Source: a virus
Virus record (IMG/VR): IMGVR_UViG_3300025133_000757
Span: 1 to 20,164 of that record
DNA length: 20,164 nucleotides
Reading direction: 5' to 3' (one strand)
In this document: positions 2,928-18,319 of the stretch, in pieces
How positions within the stretch are numbered: position 1 is the first letter of the stretch
Layout: every line of letters starts with the position of its first letter
Made by a program: the position numbers and the translations under genes
Notes under the pieces: generated by a model
Seen by the model: only the letters and a program-made list of their open reading frames with translations
What the model was told of the DNA's origin: nothing
Database searches by the model: none

Positions 2928-3156
2928 GACGTTTCTGCGGGCGTTCGGCATTGTCTGCTGTACGAGTGCGAACGTGGTCTTCCTGTCACGGGGTGCGTTG
3001 GGCTATGCGTTTGTCACGGGCTTCCTGATTAGCTATCTCTGGTGGCACAACGCAAAAACGGCGGCCCACGCTGATGGTCGGTGGACCGCCGTAATCTTCG
3101 GACTGGGTGCAGCGACTGGCACCGTGGTTGGGGCCAGCCTTGCGCGACTACTCTAG
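2911..3156 (+). CDS. Small membrane protein of unknown function
   Basis: This 81-aa protein has hydrophobic segments at about residues 10-24 (AFGIVCCTSANVVFL), 28-45 (ALGYAFVTGFLISYLWW) and 60-80 (AVIFGLGAATGTVVGASLARLL), so two or three membrane spans are expected. It overlaps the DUF5664 gene by 17 nt and has only a weak ribosome binding site, consistent with translational coupling. Its stop shares the palindrome CTAG with the stop of the opposing DUF736-like gene. No terminator hairpin is visible at this convergent junction. A second holin or superinfection-exclusion protein are possibilities, but nothing in the sequence decides between them. Confidence 0.55.
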   Translation: MWILSRTFLRAFGIVCCTSANVVFLSRGALGYAFVTGFLISYLWWHNAKTAAHADGRWTAVIFGLGAATGTVVGASLARLL

Positions 3157-4070: not shown

Positions 4071-4537
4071 TTCGTCCGTCCCTGAGAAAATTCGAGTGCG
4101 CGAACTCTTTTAGCCGCGAGAATTGGGTTCGTCATTTGACAGTCACAACGAGACACCGAGGACACCATCAGTCCTGAGGCTTTGTCGAGGCGGTCTTTAT
4201 TGTAGCGCCACGAGGTGTCTTCACAATACTTACAATAATAGGACGCCCTTTGGCCATCCGCTGTGCGCTCTGGCAGTAGCGCTTTCGCTGTTTGAGACAG
4301 TTGGTTTTTACGGTCTAGCTGGCTGGCCCGTTCGGCCCACTCCCCGACAGTGGGTAAAAACTTTTGTCCGTGTTCCGAGAGGAATTGTCGACCGGCCTGC
4401 TCGACATATTCGATAGCATAAGATGTAAGGCCTTTAAAGTAAATCCCGACGCCCATGAGTTGCTCTTCACGTGGCACAAGGCCTACGAGCATTTCCGTGT
4501 AGATGCGTTTGAAACGTTCCTTGTCGGTATTAATCAT
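4067..4537 (-). CDS. Replication-associated Cys4 protein
   Basis: This 156-aa protein is predicted helical for its first 95 residues and then has a C-x2-C...C-x-C set (Cys102, Cys105, Cys131, Cys133) that can bind one zinc. It sits directly downstream of the DUF1376-type replication gene with a 4-nt ATGA-type overlap. The acidic and basic helical N-terminus (FKRIYTEMLVGLVPREEQL, then LPTVGEWAERASQL) resembles small phage proteins that partner initiator or helicase-loader proteins. There is no Walker motif, so it is not itself a DnaC-like ATPase. The role is inferred from neighbourhood. Confidence 0.55.
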   Translation of the reverse strand: MINTDKERFKRIYTEMLVGLVPREEQLMGVGIYFKGLTSYAIEYVEQAGRQFLSEHGQKFLPTVGEWAERASQLDRKNQLSQTAKALLPERTADGQRASYYCKYCEDTSWRYNKDRLDKASGLMVSSVSRCDCQMTNPILAAKRVRALEFSQGRTK

Positions 4538-5328
4538 TGGTTGTCTCCGACGAGCGCAAGGTTGCTTGCTTGAATTTTTGCCAGACGTCCGTTAGGTCGA
4601 ACCGGACGCACCGTGATAGTTGACACTGCTTGTGTAGGTTGAGGTGTTTCGCTTTTTTCATACCACTTCTGCATGGTGTTTTCTGATTCGATAATCCAGT
4701 CGAAGTTGGCTGTCCAGCCACGCTTGCTCATCCCGCGACACCAGTCCTGTGTATTGAGATATGCAAAGACTTGTTGCCATGTTTTCAGGTCGGGAAATTC
4801 ACGTAACCGTGCGCGTAATTTTACGGTTCGCTTCTCGGTCAGCTTCCGCACTTGGGGAATTGGCAAGGTCATGGTGTTGTTCCATAAATCCACAATAGCT
4901 TGAGGCTGTACTGTGAGAATAGTTTGTTTAGATTTAGTACTAGTACTAGATTCTAGAGCTATAGGGTCGCTATGGCGTGGCCATCGCGCTCTGGCGCCGG
5001 CAGCGCCTCGTTCCCTTTGTTTTTGACGGTACTCTAGTTGATTTTGGCGTTCAACTTCCAGACGAGGATTACGCAACAAACCATTTTCTTCCACAAATTT
5101 ATTCCGCAATACGTCCCAGATTGCCCGAAACTCACGCTTGGTAATTCCACCAAGAATTTTCCGTAGGCTTTCTTCCTGAGAGGGAACCGCATCATGGTCC
5201 CACTGCCAGCACAACAATCGAATATAGGCGCCAACCTGCTGGTTGGTCATCGTGATACAGCTTGCTAAAAACGAGGAACAGTAGAGTTGAAAACTTGGAC
5301 TACGACGTAGGGGTTTTTTTTGACTCAC
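4534..5328 (-). CDS. DUF1376 (YdaU-like) replication protein
   Basis: The product is 264 aa from a GTG at 5328. I chose this start because AGGAGG lies 5 nt upstream and the DUF1376 domain begins at once (PSFQLYCSSFLAS, then MTNQQVGAYIRLLCWQW). The domain covers about residues 8-105 with a winged-helix character, followed by a basic RQKQRERGAAGARARWP segment. A Ser/Thr-rich linker (about 117-130) leads to a second helical domain (about 135-215). Phage proteins of this layout are thought to act as replication initiators or loaders, and the Cys4 protein follows with an overlap. The ribosome binding site lies inside the upstream 66-aa gene and is a 13-nt perfect complement of a putative antisense RNA at 7348-7450. 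The linker DNA holds a promoter-like element. Confidence 0.72.
   Translation of the reverse strand: MSQKKPLRRSPSFQLYCSSFLASCITMTNQQVGAYIRLLCWQWDHDAVPSQEESLRKILGGITKREFRAIWDVLRNKFVEENGLLRNPRLEVERQNQLEYRQKQRERGAAGARARWPRHSDPIALESSTSTKSKQTILTVQPQAIVDLWNNTMTLPIPQVRKLTEKRTVKLRARLREFPDLKTWQQVFAYLNTQDWCRGMSKRGWTANFDWIIESENTMQKWYEKSETPQPTQAVSTITVRPVRPNGRLAKIQASNLALVGDNQ
4931..4987 (-). promoter_or_regulatory. Promoter-like element inside the replication gene linker
   Basis: Read on the minus strand, this stretch contains GCGACCCTATAGCT (4957-4970), followed by a CTAG/TAC-rich tail with TAGTACTAG. The same 14-mer and a similar tail occur at 11657-11697 on the plus strand, upstream of the packaging operon; 20 of 23 positions around the core agree. 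GG-x-GAC-x-CTATAG is reminiscent of SP6/T7-type phage RNA polymerase promoters. It would fire toward the Cys4, HNH and VRR-NUC genes. Function is inferred. Confidence 0.4.
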
Positions 5329-5500
5329 GGGGCCTCCTAAATGTATACAGGTCCGGATTAGCGCGACGTCCATACACATACATGACGTTATCAATGTCGG
5401 CAGACCGCCAGTTTCGGTCCGCATGAAAACGGGACACCGCCAGCACTAGCCGGTGTCCCCACTGCTTCACACACGTGCGAAGTATTGTTGTTATGCTCAT
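5300..5500 (-). CDS. Small protein of unknown function
   Basis: I place the start at the ATG at 5500, which overlaps the stop of the NinB-like gene by 4 nt (ATGA); a longer in-frame version starting at 5554 would lie wholly inside that gene and is less likely. The product is 66 aa, basic (WGHRLVLAVSRFHADRNWR, then YGRRANPDLYTFRRPRESKK), with no membrane segment or cysteine pair. Its end overlaps the GTG start of the DUF1376 gene by 29 nt, so the two are probably translationally coupled. I do not recognise the family. Basic character and location suggest DNA or protein binding in replication. Confidence 0.55.
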   Translation of the reverse strand: MSITTILRTCVKQWGHRLVLAVSRFHADRNWRSADIDNVMYVYGRRANPDLYTFRRPRESKKTPTS

Positions 5501-5973: not shown

Positions 5974-6625
5974 CAAGCCTCCACTGCTTAATTTCTTCAA
6001 CCGACTCACGCACGGAATTTAGGAATGCGTGCACCTCTACTGCATACTCGTCCAGTTTTAATTCCTCCGCCGTGAACCGCTGAATAAAAATCTGGGCATT
6101 TTCTGGGAGCGATGGACGAAAGGCCACGTAGTCTATCCACTTACGTTCTGTGGTCCATAAATTATGGCGCAGTTGCGCCATCACTGACCGCGGCGCTTCC
6201 CGCGTGCGAAGCACCTCAAGGTGATTATGTGGTGCCATGCACTTGACTTCAACTAATCCCTCTTCCCCAACAAGACCATCAGGGCTACACCCTATCCACG
6301 CTAGGGAGCGATGTGAAATGTAACCAACAGGCGTCACACGCTGTAGCGTGGTGGCTTCATAACAACTAATTGCGTTAGCTTCTTGGTCAATGCCATGCTG
6401 CATGTCGGGCGTCAGGATGGTGCTTTTTTCTGACACCCCAGAGATGCGCTCTTCTGCGATTTCTGCGATTAAGCGCTGACGTGTTTTAGAAACGCCACCC
6501 TTTTTCTTTGGCTGGGTGAGCATCTCCTGCGCCCGGGAGCCGGTAAGGCTCCCGACCCGCAGCGCAAACCACTCGTCGGTTCGCTGTGGTGTGTCATACA
6601 CCATTCCTAGCGCAAGGCCCGTCAT
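5954..6625 (-). CDS. YqaJ-type viral recombinase exonuclease (lambda Exo family)
   Basis: This 223-aa protein has the complete YqaJ/lambda-exonuclease order: R-x-x-x-W (RTDEWFALRVGSLTGS, residues 15-30), a Glu-containing helix (HGIDQEANAISCYE, Glu82), CSPDGLVG (Asp116) and GLVEVKC (Glu126, Lys128). The last two form the PD-(D/E)XK metal site, and a Gln-containing helix follows (MAQLRHNLW). The enzyme degrades one strand of double-stranded DNA 5' to 3' to expose single strands for annealing. It overlaps the ERF gene by 4 nt, so exonuclease and annealing protein form a classical two-component recombination pair like lambda Exo/Beta. Confidence 0.9.
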   Translation of the reverse strand: MTGLALGMVYDTPQRTDEWFALRVGSLTGSRAQEMLTQPKKKGGVSKTRQRLIAEIAEERISGVSEKSTILTPDMQHGIDQEANAISCYEATTLQRVTPVGYISHRSLAWIGCSPDGLVGEEGLVEVKCMAPHNHLEVLRTREAPRSVMAQLRHNLWTTERKWIDYVAFRPSLPENAQIFIQRFTAEELKLDEYAVEVHAFLNSVRESVEEIKQWRLDGKAAE

Positions 6626-7293
6626 TTTTTCACCTGCGCTATCTTGGCAGAGGCCTTTTTCTTTTCAGGACCTGCAACCAATTTAGTCACCTGATCAATC
6701 ATCGCTCTCACGTCTTTCGAGGTGTCTTTCCACATGTACCTTTTGGTTTCCTTGTCGAGCTTCTGAATATCGTTTAGCACATGCGCGACACCCTCCGCTT
6801 TATACTCACGCAACAGAAGCTTTACCAGAGCGTCGTAGCCATCTGGTTTCGCTACACCGTAGTCGTGAAACTGGGCGTCATCATCTTCGCTCAGGGAGGC
6901 GAGTCCCAGCAGCGCTTGCAATGACAAACGCTTCATATAGGTAATCACCGCCAGCACTTTCTGGGCTTGCTCACTTTCGGGTCTCATCGTCATAGTGCTC
7001 GACATCCACTCCCCACTCCCGGCGTGGAAAAACATGGTTTGCACAGAGACAAAGTTAAAGCTCTCCTCGCCATGTTTATAGAGTCGACCGGCGCTCTGCA
7101 TCATTAAGATGCCGGCCTTAAGGAGCGGTTGCGAAGACACCCGCAAGATTTCCTGTAACGGAATAAACTTACTGTTCCAATGCGGGTTCTTTGCTTCCAC
7201 TAATGTAAAACTGCTATGTAAAATCTCCTTTCTCGCTTCAATAAGCGCTGCGGTAATATTTTTAATTCCCTCTGAAAAAGACATTTCTACCAT
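6622..7293 (-). CDS. ERF-family single-strand annealing protein
   Basis: This 223-aa protein fits the ERF superfamily (P22 Erf). The N-terminal helix LIEARKEI is followed by NPHWNSKFIPLQEILRVSSQPLLKAGI (about residues 36-62; N-x-x-x-x-SKF-x-x-L is the family signature), then MQSAG, then the ITYMKRLSLQALLGLASLSEDDDAQ segment (about 118-142) matching the family's YxKRY-x-LxxLLGI-x-x-x-DDDG block. The C-terminal 70 residues are charged and variable, as is usual. ERF proteins form rings that anneal complementary single strands. The start has AGGAGAG 5 nt upstream. A 170-bp gap to the HTH gene holds the putative plus-strand RNA. Confidence 0.87.
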   Translation of the reverse strand: MVEMSFSEGIKNITAALIEARKEILHSSFTLVEAKNPHWNSKFIPLQEILRVSSQPLLKAGILMMQSAGRLYKHGEESFNFVSVQTMFFHAGSGEWMSSTMTMRPESEQAQKVLAVITYMKRLSLQALLGLASLSEDDDAQFHDYGVAKPDGYDALVKLLLREYKAEGVAHVLNDIQKLDKETKRYMWKDTSKDVRAMIDQVTKLVAGPEKKKASAKIAQVKK

Positions 7294-7311
7294 GGTTACT
7301 CTCCTTATTAG

Positions 7312-7341
7312 TTGACGCTTACTTTACAAACACGGTACACT
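7312..7341 (+). promoter_or_regulatory. Sigma70-like promoter for the putative antisense RNA
   Basis: TTGACG (7312-7317) and TACACT (7336-7341) are separated by 18 bp, matching a sigma70-type promoter at 5 of 6 and 4 of 6 positions, on the strand opposite to the flanking genes. Transcription would start near 7348. No plus-strand ORF follows, but a terminator lies 100 bp downstream. Confidence 0.55.
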
Positions 7342-7350
7342 GAAAATCAT
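7324..7350 (-). CDS. Possible 8-codon leader peptide upstream of ERF
   Basis: On the minus strand AGGAGA lies 5 nt before an ATG opening an 8-codon frame (MIFSVPCL, stop TAA) that ends 31 nt upstream of the ERF start. It could be a leader peptide. The same bases form the first hairpin of the putative plus-strand RNA, so the AGGAGA may only be the complement of that RNA's UUCUCCU loop. This is a weak call. Confidence 0.2.
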   Translation of the reverse strand: MIFSVPCL

Positions 7351-7450
7351 TTATTTCTCCTATAAATGACGTTGACGTAGCAGCGGGACTGCTTGAGTAC
7401 TGGGCCTCCTAAATCATTCCAGTTACCCACCTCAGGCAGTCCCTTTTTTT
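7348..7450 (+). ncRNA. Putative antisense regulatory RNA with two anti-Shine-Dalgarno loops
   Basis: A transcript from the promoter at 7312-7341 to the terminator T-run would be about 100 nt and contain no gene. The first hairpin (7347-7354 with 7362-7369, 8 bp) has the loop TTCTCCT. The second is a long hairpin with an outer 13-bp stem (7385-7397 with 7431-7443, one G-U), an inner ACTGG/CCAGT stem (7399-7403 with 7419-7423) and a 15-nt loop holding CCTCCT. GGGCCTCCTAAAT (7402-7414) is the exact complement of the mRNA segment at 5330-5342 that contains the AGGAGG of the DUF1376 replication gene. The layout fits a trans-acting RNA that blocks translation starts. Structure and complementarity are seen in the sequence; expression and function are inferred. 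Confidence 0.55.
7385..7450 (+). terminator. Rho-independent terminator ending the putative RNA
   Basis: GGGACTGCTTGAG pairs with CTCAGGCAGTCCC over 13 bp (one G-U), followed at once by seven T on the plus strand. On the minus strand there is no T-run after the hairpin, so it is oriented against the flanking genes. The loop is long and contains a nested 5-bp stem. Confidence 0.7.
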
Positions 7451-7455
7451 AATCT

Positions 7456-7480
7456 CCCAAATTTTAATTTTCAACCTCAG
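7456..7480 (+). repeat. AT-rich intergenic repeat, copy C
   Basis: CCAAATTTTAATTTT followed by a CAACCTCAGG tail matches the core and tail of copies at 2534, 9200 and 11573 in the same orientation. It begins 5 nt after the T-run of the RNA terminator and supplies the stop codon of the HTH gene. Confidence 0.5.
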
Positions 7481-7691
7481 GGTCTTGCGTTCTAGTTACA
7501 AAGTCTCCAATGGAACACTGCAGTGCACGGGCAATCGCCATAGAAGTGTTCAGCGACTGCACGCCATGAAAGAACCGCCAGACACGCTGGTAGTTTAGGT
7601 TAGCTTCGCGTGCGAGGGCGGCCTGATTTAATCCTCGGGCCACCATAAGGTCCTTTACTTGCTCAAGGTCTACAACGATGTGTATGGCCAT
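7464..7691 (-). CDS. Cro/CI-type helix-turn-helix regulator
   Basis: This 75-aa protein is essentially one HTH_3/XRE domain: helix 1 at about residues 8-19, the HTH GLNQAALAREANLNYQRVWRF at about 20-40, and helices 4-5 at about 49-66 (TSMAIARALQCSIGDFV). Proteins this short act as Cro-like repressors or antirepressors by binding palindromic operators as dimers. The start follows GGAGG by 7 nt, and the gene begins right after the stop of the 149-aa gene. Candidate targets are the GTGAA-N4-TTCAC palindromes near 11360 and 11419, but no sequence proof links them. The absence of a visible second divergent repressor means it need not be a lysogeny switch. Confidence 0.82.
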   Translation of the reverse strand: MAIHIVVDLEQVKDLMVARGLNQAALAREANLNYQRVWRFFHGVQSLNTSMAIARALQCSIGDFVTRTQDPEVEN

Positions 7692-8157: not shown

Positions 8158-8230
8158 AAAAAGGGAGACCCCCCACTCTGACGAAAGGCGGCAATTGAAA
8201 GAAGTTACCACGCTTTGTGAGAGGTCTCCC
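8158..8230 (-). terminator. Long terminator-like hairpin abutting a ribosome binding site
   Basis: On the minus strand GGGAGACC (8230-8223) pairs with GGTCTCCC (8170-8163), and further imperfect pairing is possible inside (CTCT with AGAG, then ACAAAGCGTGG with CCGCCTTTCGT). TTTTT follows, and 2 nt later the AGGAGA of the 149-aa gene begins. It could be an attenuator in the leader of that gene, or the end of a short RNA. Confidence 0.5.
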
Positions 8231-8302: not shown

Positions 8303-8337
8303 AAAAAAAACCCCGCCGGGATTACTCCCAACGGGGT
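8303..8337 (-). terminator. Rho-independent terminator of the DUF932 gene
   Basis: On the minus strand ACCCCGTTGGGA pairs with TCCCGGCGGGGT through a GTAA loop (12 pairs, two of them G-U), followed by TTTTTTTT. It lies 23 nt after the DUF932 stop codon. Confidence 0.85.
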
Positions 8338-9199: not shown

Positions 9200-9236
9200 G
9201 AAAATTTGAAAATCCAAAATTTTAATTTTTACCCTA
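9200..9236 (+). repeat. AT-rich intergenic repeat, copy B
   Basis: This 37-bp element is identical to copy A (2534-2570) at 34 of 37 positions. It lies in the divergent region upstream of the DUF932 gene. Confidence 0.7.
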
Positions 9237-9551: not shown

Positions 9552-10397
9552 ATGCATACACGTATTCGCTGGTCTAGAAATGATGATAGCCCGGCTGCTG
9601 CCATTGTCGTGGCTAAGTCTGGTGACCGTAAGCTAGGTAGTACGCCCGGATGTGCTGCCGTTCATTTGTCGCAGTGGTCATGCCCGGTCACGTGCTCACT
9701 CTTACCAACCATAGAAAAAATGCGGACCGAGTTTGGATCTGTTTATAAAAAAGTAAAAGCCGTCTGTTATGCAAACAGTAATAAAACACGTCAACGATTT
9801 ACAACACATAGACTCAACAGTAGTAAAGAACGCAACCCGGTAAGCATTGCTCGAGAAGCCGCTCGAAAAATCTTACAGCTAGCACATAGCAAAAGTATGA
9901 AGCGCAAGCTGCGTTTGTCTGTTGTTGGAGACGCACGCACGAGACAAGCCGCACGCATTTATTCTAAGGCTGCCAGTGAGTATCAACGCCTCACAAATAA
10001 AAACGCATACAGCTACACACACAGTTTACAAACACATCGCAGCGACTGGCATGACGTCTCCGTACTTGCTTCAATCAGTTGTGTGAACCCGGATGGAACA
10101 ACACGCACACAGACCGAAATACAAAACGATATAAACAGTTTTCGTCGACGTGGCTATCAGAAGTTTTCTGTTGTCATTCCACACACACACAACACAACAC
10201 ACACATACGATGATGTATTGACCGGATTAAAATTGATTGCCTGTCGCTATCAATTTCAACCACGCACGAACACATCAAAGCCGCTCAAACGTGTGACGTG
10301 TGATCACTGTGACTTATGCTTAGAGACATGCTTAGAACGGGCTCAAATCGATGGTGTGGCGTTTCAATTGGATGATGCTGGTAAGGTACCTGTTTAG
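9552..10397 (+). CDS. Cysteine-rich phage protein of unknown function (DUF7227-like)
   Basis: This 281-aa protein has an N-terminal cluster (Cys34, Cys44, Cys48 in SCPVTC, Cys72 in VCYAN) and a C-terminal cluster TCDHCDLCLETC (Cys250, 253, 256, 260). The middle has RLSVVGDART, YSYTHS, DVSVLASI and FSVVIP strands. This order (G-x-TG-type strand, CP-x-TC, CYA, R-x-x-VVGD, TH, then a terminal CxxCxxC) resembles a phage family of unknown function found in many actinobacterial and other phages. The cysteines could hold a metal or Fe-S centre. The coding sequence is unusually rich in ACA/CAC codons, unlike the structural genes. The start has AGGAGC 9 nt upstream, and a terminator follows the stop. 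Confidence 0.6.
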   Translation: MHTRIRWSRNDDSPAAAIVVAKSGDRKLGSTPGCAAVHLSQWSCPVTCSLLPTIEKMRTEFGSVYKKVKAVCYANSNKTRQRFTTHRLNSSKERNPVSIAREAARKILQLAHSKSMKRKLRLSVVGDARTRQAARIYSKAASEYQRLTNKNAYSYTHSLQTHRSDWHDVSVLASISCVNPDGTTRTQTEIQNDINSFRRRGYQKFSVVIPHTHNTTHTYDDVLTGLKLIACRYQFQPRTNTSKPLKRVTCDHCDLCLETCLERAQIDGVAFQLDDAGKVPV

Positions 10398-11508: not shown

Positions 11509-11572
11509 GTGGCCACATACAAAATCTGAAAATTTTGGAAAATTTTAACCCAAAAAATTGCAAATTTGGTGC

Positions 11573-11600
11573 ATGGAAATTTTAATTTTTTCCATAGGGA
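11573..11600 (+). repeat. AT-rich intergenic repeat, copy D
   Basis: The core AAATTTTAATTTTT and the CCATAGGG tail match copies A-C. Here the core sits inside an inverted repeat ATGGAAA...TTTCCAT (11573-11595), and degenerate AAAATTTT units extend upstream to about 11520. Confidence 0.5.
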
Positions 11601-17458: not shown

Positions 17459-18319
17459 ATGGCACAGTATGATTTTGGGTGGTCAGGATCACCATGGAGG
17501 AATCGTCCGATGTCCACGGAAATCGGGGATGCCGGCGATCCATTTCGAGACGAGGGTCCTAGAATGCGAGACAGGCCTGCCGCATTCAATATTAGTCAGG
17601 GGCCTGTGAGACCGCAATCAACCCGTACTTCTGGTTTCAAACCATTGCTCCAACCACTAAAGCCAGCAACCGCCGCGGTGCAACCACCAACAGCGTTACC
17701 ACCAACAGCGCCCATCGGGCAGATGCCCTCACCTCAGTGGGCAAACCCCCCTGATGTCAATGACAATAGAACCACTACAATGCCAGCAAGGACAGAACCC
17801 GCTATGGTGCCGGGGTGGAGTCAAATTCCTGCTGCTCGGACGACACCCAAGGAGATTCCTGCTGCTCGGACGACACCCAAGGAGTTTTTTGTCGGGCGTG
17901 TAGAGACAGCAGCACCATCATTGCAGAATCTGTTTATGGGCCGAGGCGATCCCGTTGCTCCGATACCACCAGCACGGCAGTTTCCACGGTCAACCGAGGC
18001 GATTGGCGATCAGGGTGACCCGATACTTCCTGCGTCAAACAGGGGGCGCCCTAATCAATATTGGGGGACCAAAGGAACCCCAAGTTGGTCTTATTCAGAC
18101 GGACCATTAGCCAATATTGACGTTCCGGCATATAGTGGTCAGTCGGCTTCACAATACCTCAAACTCCTTAACTCTCTTGGATTAGGGAGCTTCTATCGCG
18201 GACAAGGTCATGGTCCGGTACCTGATCCATCGGTGAGATACACTCCGCCATGGCCCTTCAATGAGAACGAAGAAGCCTACAATAGAGCACGGCAAGCCTA
18301 CAATAGACGACAATACTAA
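17459..18319 (+). CDS. Proline-rich protein of unknown function
   Basis: This 286-aa protein is low in hydrophobic residues and rich in Pro, Thr, Ala and Gly, so it is probably largely disordered in the first 190 residues. It contains three related short motifs of the GD-x-GDP type (EIGDAGDPF, MGRGDPVAP, IGDQGDPIL) and a perfect in-frame duplication of a 10-residue unit (IPAARTTPKE). The C-terminal part has Tyr-rich segments (YSGQSASQYLKLLNSLGLGSFYRGQG). It lies downstream of the portal, where scaffold, head-decoration or minor structural proteins are usual. I do not recognise a family. Confidence 0.6.
   Translation: MAQYDFGWSGSPWRNRPMSTEIGDAGDPFRDEGPRMRDRPAAFNISQGPVRPQSTRTSGFKPLLQPLKPATAAVQPPTALPPTAPIGQMPSPQWANPPDVNDNRTTTMPARTEPAMVPGWSQIPAARTTPKEIPAARTTPKEFFVGRVETAAPSLQNLFMGRGDPVAPIPPARQFPRSTEAIGDQGDPILPASNRGRPNQYWGTKGTPSWSYSDGPLANIDVPAYSGQSASQYLKLLNSLGLGSFYRGQGHGPVPDPSVRYTPPWPFNENEEAYNRARQAYNRRQY
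17825..17884 (+). repeat. Perfect 30-bp tandem duplication
   Basis: Two identical 30-bp units (17825-17854 and 17855-17884) encode two copies of IPAARTTPKE in frame. Their exact identity suggests a recent slippage event. Confidence 0.95.

Follow-up and report, generated by a model that had tools for sequence, protein, structure and literature searches.

A candidate antisense RNA gene opposite the early operon of an uncultured phage, found again with a different sequence in a diverged lineage, may act on early-gene start sites

The window analyzed here, the whole 20,164-base stretch of an IMG/VR virus record (class linear) from an uncultured phage that we call W, carries on the strand opposite its early operon a promoter-terminator unit that probably specifies a real small antisense RNA. 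A unit of the same architecture and different sequence occupies the matching place in a distant relative, and in view of this recurrence the unit of W is probably an early-gene brake and not a chance match. The explanation that we prefer, with a probability of about 0.48, is that the unit is a phage antisense RNA gene whose anti-Shine-Dalgarno loops would cover ribosome binding sites of the early and replication-module genes of its own phage and so lower their translation. Repression of early-gene start sites is thus the leading hypothesis, with cis pairing of the kind known for OOP RNA as a close rival. We also put forward, tentatively, a more specific proposal: the sequence of the antisense gene would change between lineages at a constant position and with a constant architecture, and its terminator loop would be adjusted each time to the ribosome binding sites of the early and replication genes of the phage in question, so that a single RNA encoded within the operon would act in trans as a brake on other, distant genes of that operon.

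The early operon of W lies on the minus strand and reads, in order of transcription, DUF932-like, unknown, HTH, a gap (7463-7294), ERF, YqaJ, NinB, a 66-aa ORF, DUF1376/O-like, unknown, and HNH, with gene starts picked by hand from open reading frames and Shine-Dalgarno-like sequence. The gap is flanked upstream by the HTH (Cro/C1-type) gene (7464-7691, minus strand; Pfam PF13443, E 5.2e-08) and downstream by the ERF-family annealing gene (6622-7293, minus strand; Pfam PF04404, E 4.7e-16), which adjoins the antisense unit. The DUF1376/O-like replication initiation gene (4534-5328, minus strand; Pfam PF07120, E 6.9e-07; PHROG replication initiation, E 1.7e-16) has a GTG start, and its ribosome binding site is embedded in the 3' coding end of the small upstream 66-aa ORF (5300-5500), a relative of which is present in the second lineage. 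Between the DUF932-like gene and the gene at 8141-7692, two strong terminator-like hairpins of -34 and -21 kcal/mol (8162-8230 and 8310-8336, minus strand) have the orientation of the early operon; early transcripts begun farther upstream could arrive at HTH, ERF and DUF1376 only through read-through or antitermination.

The unit begins with a plus-strand promoter, TTGACG-18-TACACT (7312-7341), which matches the consensus at 9/12 positions and whose -35 box begins 19 nt from the ERF start codon. Taken alone this promoter is at chance level (4 found compared with 2.8 +/- 1.8 expected). A scan for promoter plus terminator returned the unit as the sole one in the window, where shuffling predicts 0.09 per 20 kb and 2 of 200 shuffles contained one with a stem energy of -20 or below. 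The predicted RNA of about 100 nt (7348-7450, plus strand), its 5' end inferred from the -10 box as in lineage 2, has a fold z-score of -5.35, none of 200 shuffles being equally stable, and ends 13 nt short of the HTH stop codon, which starts at 7464. Its first element is a 5' hairpin, CATTTAT-TTCTCCT-ATAAATG (7348-7368, plus strand), whose loop complements AGGAGA-type Shine-Dalgarno sites; in a comparison of start sites this loop matched those of early genes more closely than those of late genes, a fit to Shine-Dalgarno sites that is partly automatic because the loop is antisense to a local one. The terminator (7385-7450, plus strand; -27.6 kcal/mol) consists of a hairpin at 7385-7443 with a 13-bp stem containing one U.G pair, an inner stem and a long loop, followed by T7 at 7444-7450, and is the strongest plus-strand terminator-like site of the window scan, one minus-strand site scoring higher. 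The 15-nt loop closed by ACTGG/CCAGT that had been described earlier is a possible alternative (ACUGG/CCAGU); however, the minimum-free-energy form has an inner stem UGGG/CCCA and a 21-nt loop. The loop contains the anti-Shine-Dalgarno element GGGCCTCCTAAAT (7402-7414, plus strand), the exact complement of the DUF1376 ribosome binding site; its GGG is partly paired in both inner-stem forms, and CCUCCUAAAU is free. Both loops of W thus carry CU-rich anti-Shine-Dalgarno motifs, UUCUCCU in the 5' hairpin and CCUCCU in the terminator.

The second lineage (loci L047, L048, L049 and L058) was reached through portal relatives, records G001, G002 and G003. The gap sequences of G002, G003 and L058 are near-identical and that of G001 is about 95% identical to them, and these records were therefore counted as one lineage, so that only two independent lineages, W and lineage 2, carry the unit. 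The recurrence in lineage 2 is the strongest evidence for it. The early operons have in common NinB, DUF1376 (42-44% identity), the gene that follows it (about 60%) and HNH (67-68%), the downstream replication genes being 42-68% identical to those of W at the protein level; the lineage 2 ERF differs from that of W (29% identity). One further gene of W (9552-10397) lies on the plus strand, opposite the early operon, whereas its lineage 2 relative (about 33% identity) is on the early-operon strand. The ERF-adjacent gap of lineage 2 does not align with the gap of W, which might have meant that relatives had lost the hairpin unit; this was rejected, since a terminator scan reveals an antisense terminator of -23 kcal/mol at the matching position. 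Both lineages place the unit on the antisense strand just upstream of ERF, with TTGACG, an 18-nt spacer, a small 5' hairpin and a terminator with a 13-bp stem and a long loop holding an anti-Shine-Dalgarno core (CCUCCU in W, CCUCCC in lineage 2, where the terminator loop is the only site of the motif), and the -35 box stands 19 nt from the ERF start codon in W and 20 nt in lineage 2. The lineage 2 promoter, TTGACG-18-TATAAT, matches at 11/12 positions and is the best in its 9-10 kb, where 0.08 are expected at 11/12 or better. Shuffles of L048 yielded 0.045 units per 10.5 kb, and 0/200 had a stem energy of -20 or below. The predicted lineage 2 RNA is about 72 nt, and its terminator arm extends over the 3' end of the gene before it, for which no PHROG family match was found. 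Across all loci scanned for promoter plus terminator, an ERF-adjacent unit occurred only in W and in the lineage 2 records.

This recurrence bears on two accounts in which no functional RNA is involved. Were chance to explain everything, a terminator, a promoter-like match and a 13-mer would each have arisen at random and fallen together, as the frequency of 13-mer repeats in 20 kb might encourage one to think; since a second lineage has the complete unit at the matching place, this is the least probable account of all. Alternatively, the hairpin could be a guard whose only task is to keep plus-strand transcription out of the early operon, such as transcripts that run on from the convergent genes ending near 3156; the promoter match would then be accidental. 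The strength and one-directional nature of the hairpin and the chance-level promoter of W agree with such a role, but it does not account for the 11/12 promoter at the matching place in lineage 2 or for the spacer and ERF distance common to both lineages, and termination does not need a long anti-Shine-Dalgarno loop. We regard it as improbable.

The direction of the wobble pairs indicates which strand folds. The non-Watson-Crick pairs of the stems, one U.G in W and two G.U in lineage 2 when read on the antisense strand, all become A.C on the mRNA strand, and because this is so in both lineages the antisense RNA is taken to be the folding strand. The U-run is likewise found at the antisense side only, and the only differences between the gaps of L047 and L049, a 2-nt indel that shifts the reading frame and changes close to it, fall within the loop of the 5' hairpin. 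Together, these three features support a predicted antisense RNA. The same indel led to rejection of a small sense-strand ORF in lineage 2, whose frame it shifts. The hairpin might instead serve in the early mRNA, in regulation or processing, and expose a Shine-Dalgarno-like loop. In keeping with this, the mRNA strand of both lineages has such a sequence (AGGAGG in W, GGGAGG in lineage 2) that is not followed by a start codon, and W also has a Shine-Dalgarno sequence and ATG with an 8-codon frame. Against it stand the A.C mismatches, the lack of a U-run on the mRNA side, a frame that is not kept between L047 and L049, and a fold z-score of -1.99 compared with -5.35 for the antisense strand (the folded stretches differ in length). 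This sense-strand role seems to us more improbable still than the guard terminator, and both fit the evidence less well than an antisense RNA. The 8-codon frame itself (MIFSVPCL; 7345-7319, minus strand) is preceded by a good Shine-Dalgarno sequence (AGGAG), lies immediately before the ERF ribosome binding site and is possibly a leader peptide or a gene remnant. The earlier note's description of a complete small-RNA unit opposite the early operon agrees with our analysis in all coordinates and sequences and is well supported by the diverged unit and the wobble direction. That note had also named an outcome that would speak against it, relatives keeping the protein genes and losing both hairpin and complementarity; lineage 2 does not show that outcome, since it retains the hairpin unit in another sequence, with a loop that suits that lineage's own early starts.

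The perfect 13-nt complementarity between the terminator loop and the DUF1376 ribosome binding site, on which the same note had centered, is confirmed. GGGCCTCCTAAAT occurs on the plus strand at both 7402-7414 and 5330-5342, so a plus-strand RNA from the first site complements the minus-strand DUF1376 mRNA at the second, where the candidate target is ATTTAGGAGGCCC (5330-5342, minus strand), the DUF1376 ribosome binding site and at the same time part of the coding end of the 66-aa ORF. The match extends to 15/16 (ACxGGGCCTCCTAAAT), reaching the GT of the GTG start. A chance 13-mer somewhere in 20 kb had been called not rare, and this is borne out by about 3 direct and 6 inverted 13-mer repeats per shuffled window. 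A 13-nt complement to any of 29 starts is another matter, arising in 0/5000 loop shuffles and 4/5000 whole-RNA shuffles, and with CCUCCU fixed the observed pairing energy of W was reached in 3/3000. Interaction energies were computed with a simple ungapped model permitting one mismatch. Prediction against the tested starts, which had been proposed as a check, gave DUF1376 as the best trans site (duplex -24, net -10.7 kcal/mol; next best -7.5), but a cis site scores higher (net -12.6), and the net value of -10.7 kcal/mol, after accessibility costs, was equaled against some start by 7/160 shuffles and by 6/158 other window segments (about 4%). The match between the W loop and DUF1376 is thus better than shuffling gives, yet its net energy after structure costs is unexceptional, and the match is suggestive and not decisive. 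A chance 13-mer as the account of the whole unit is rejected by the recurrence in the second lineage; for DUF1376 as the specific target it is possible.

The lineage 2 loop, UUUGGUUCCUCCCUU, can form 12 contiguous pairs, one of them G.U, at the ribosome binding site of g2549 and again at that of the gene after DUF1376, and 10-11 contiguous pairs at those of g1129, g848 and g555. The lineage 2 DUF1376 site matches its own loop weakly (GAAGGGAG, net -1.7). With the core held fixed, the loop fit of lineage 2 is only at p ~0.02-0.05, with a count of 164/3000 for complementarity beyond the core. When the loops were swapped, the W loop scored -22.8 at home and at best -14.4 in L047, whereas the lineage 2 loop scored -21.8, -18.9 and -17.3 at home and at best -9.8 against the early starts of W; it also fits one late gene of W (-16.9). 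Each loop therefore fits the early starts of its own genome better than those of the other. Judged from these comparisons, a loop aimed at the early starts of its own phage would suit both lineages, whereas a loop aimed at DUF1376 would suit W alone. The proposal of a trans-acting brake on replication through the DUF1376 ribosome binding site is accordingly kept as suggested: its 13-nt match is better than shuffling gives, but the net energy is ordinary and the lineage 2 DUF1376 matches weakly. If the trans model is right, the target would be better put as the starts of the early and replication module generally.

The nearest comparison in layout is the OOP RNA of phage lambda, likewise a short RNA with a promoter and terminator of its own (pO-oop-tO); it runs against the early/replication operon from a position between a regulator gene and the gene that follows (PMC5869508). 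OOP is 77 nt long (PMC12197685), compared with the lengths of about 100 and about 72 nt predicted here. It differs in overlapping the coding end of cII by 52 bases and acting in cis with RNase III, whereas the loop complementarity of W points to other genes. Of the OOP-type traits, an own promoter and intrinsic terminator opposite an early/replication operon are present as sequence features in both lineages; overlap with the coding 3' end of a cII-like regulator is absent in W, where the RNA ends at 7450 and the HTH stop begins at 7464. Inspection by eye of 7290-7350 and of the lineage 2 promoter showed no LexA site (CTGT-N8-ACAG), and no Rfam family, including c4 (RF01695), reached its gathering score. 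The P22 sar and P1/P7 c4 RNAs are also phage antisense RNAs that block translation starts, c4 having complementary loop sequences around the ant ribosome binding site (PMC12197685). They differ in serving immunity (ant). Sar covers the ribosome binding site of the gene that it lies against, and c4 is on the same transcript as its target. In loop use the unit resembles LhrC of Listeria and the UCCC-loop small RNAs RNAIII, RsaE, SprD and FsrA, in which CU-rich anti-Shine-Dalgarno motifs in the 5' hairpin loop and the terminator loop pair with Shine-Dalgarno sites (PMC4132741); such motifs in loops, including the terminator loop, are present here, but those RNAs are bacterial and not antisense to an operon that they would regulate, and LhrC is multicopy. 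PreS (LPR1) and VpdS are phage-made trans-acting small RNAs bearing on replication, although PreS acts on host dnaN and is Hfq-dependent, and neither is described as aimed at its phage's own replication gene (PMC12197685). Given the missing cII-like coding overlap, we count the unit as a member of neither group: its layout resembles that of OOP, and its use of loops that of LhrC.

Since cis pairing is unavoidable if the RNA is made, and a cis site is the best-scoring of the tested starts, an OOP-like effect is a close rival to repression of early starts in trans. A real RNA would then act only on the complementary mRNA between the upstream gene and ERF, by double-strand cleavage or transcriptional interference, and the anti-Shine-Dalgarno loop would start cis loop-loop pairing or be a by-product of lying opposite a Shine-Dalgarno-like sequence. 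Complementarity that is complete by construction, the pO-oop-tO-like arrangement, the terminator arm of lineage 2 reaching into the upstream gene and the ordinary net energy of trans pairing all favor it. It leaves unexplained the fit of each lineage's loop to starts at other places in the same genome, and why no start codon follows the Shine-Dalgarno-like sequence opposite the loop. Action solely in cis seems to us somewhat unlikely.

For repression of early starts, the preferred reading, the following course can be proposed. A sigma-70-type promoter beside the ERF ribosome binding site would drive transcription opposite to that of the early operon; its product, about 100 nt long and ending at the strong intrinsic terminator that both lineages possess, would expose anti-Shine-Dalgarno loops, chiefly the terminator loop. 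By covering ribosome binding sites in the early and replication-module genes of their own phage, these loops may then damp translation, the putative targets being DUF1376 in W (13 nt, extending to the start codon) and, in lineage 2, several of the first early genes together with the gene after DUF1376 (10-12 nt). The RNA could also pair perfectly in cis with passing early mRNA, which may add cleavage. The purpose would presumably be to restrain replication, either while templates multiply or when early expression gives way to late. While the units, their place and their strand are directly observed, we infer transcription, loop binding and the fall in expression. Antisense RNAs of the OOP, sar and c4 types are known from few model phages, and a unit in uncultured phages that keeps its place while its sequence changes suggests that architecture (promoter, terminator, synteny and wobble direction) can reveal such RNAs where sequence and Rfam searches fail. 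If the fit between loops and ribosome binding sites is true, early genes of these phages would be under a simple brake that acts after transcription and tracks changes in Shine-Dalgarno spelling between lineages.

Searches of viral contigs with ERF, HTH and the exact loop DNA found no close relatives of W; the gene after DUF1376 recovered lineage 2 only, and the lineage 2 ERF only those same records. Genome contigs searched with the gene after DUF1376 and portal gave none, and a DNA search of phage records gave no match. No promoter-terminator unit lies next to the annealing gene at the YqaJ/ERF genes of nine phage-record loci and the other viral-contig loci. Two loci, L053 and L068, have one unit each, not beside ERF; that of L068 (MW202713.1, 3664-3577, minus strand) is opposite the early genes of another podovirus, about 1.7 kb ahead of its annealing gene, with a hairpin of -24.9 kcal/mol and a loop without the anti-Shine-Dalgarno core. 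Elsewhere in the window, a tandem repeat with a 30-nt period (17825-17884) is found within the reading frame 17459-18319. An AT-rich motif, AAATTTNAAAATCCAAAATTTTAATTTTT, has intergenic copies, all in plus orientation, near-complete at 2535-2562 and 9201-9235 and partial at 7447-7477 and 11571-11595; one partial copy is located directly behind the antisense terminator, and the motif could be an operator or another regulatory site.
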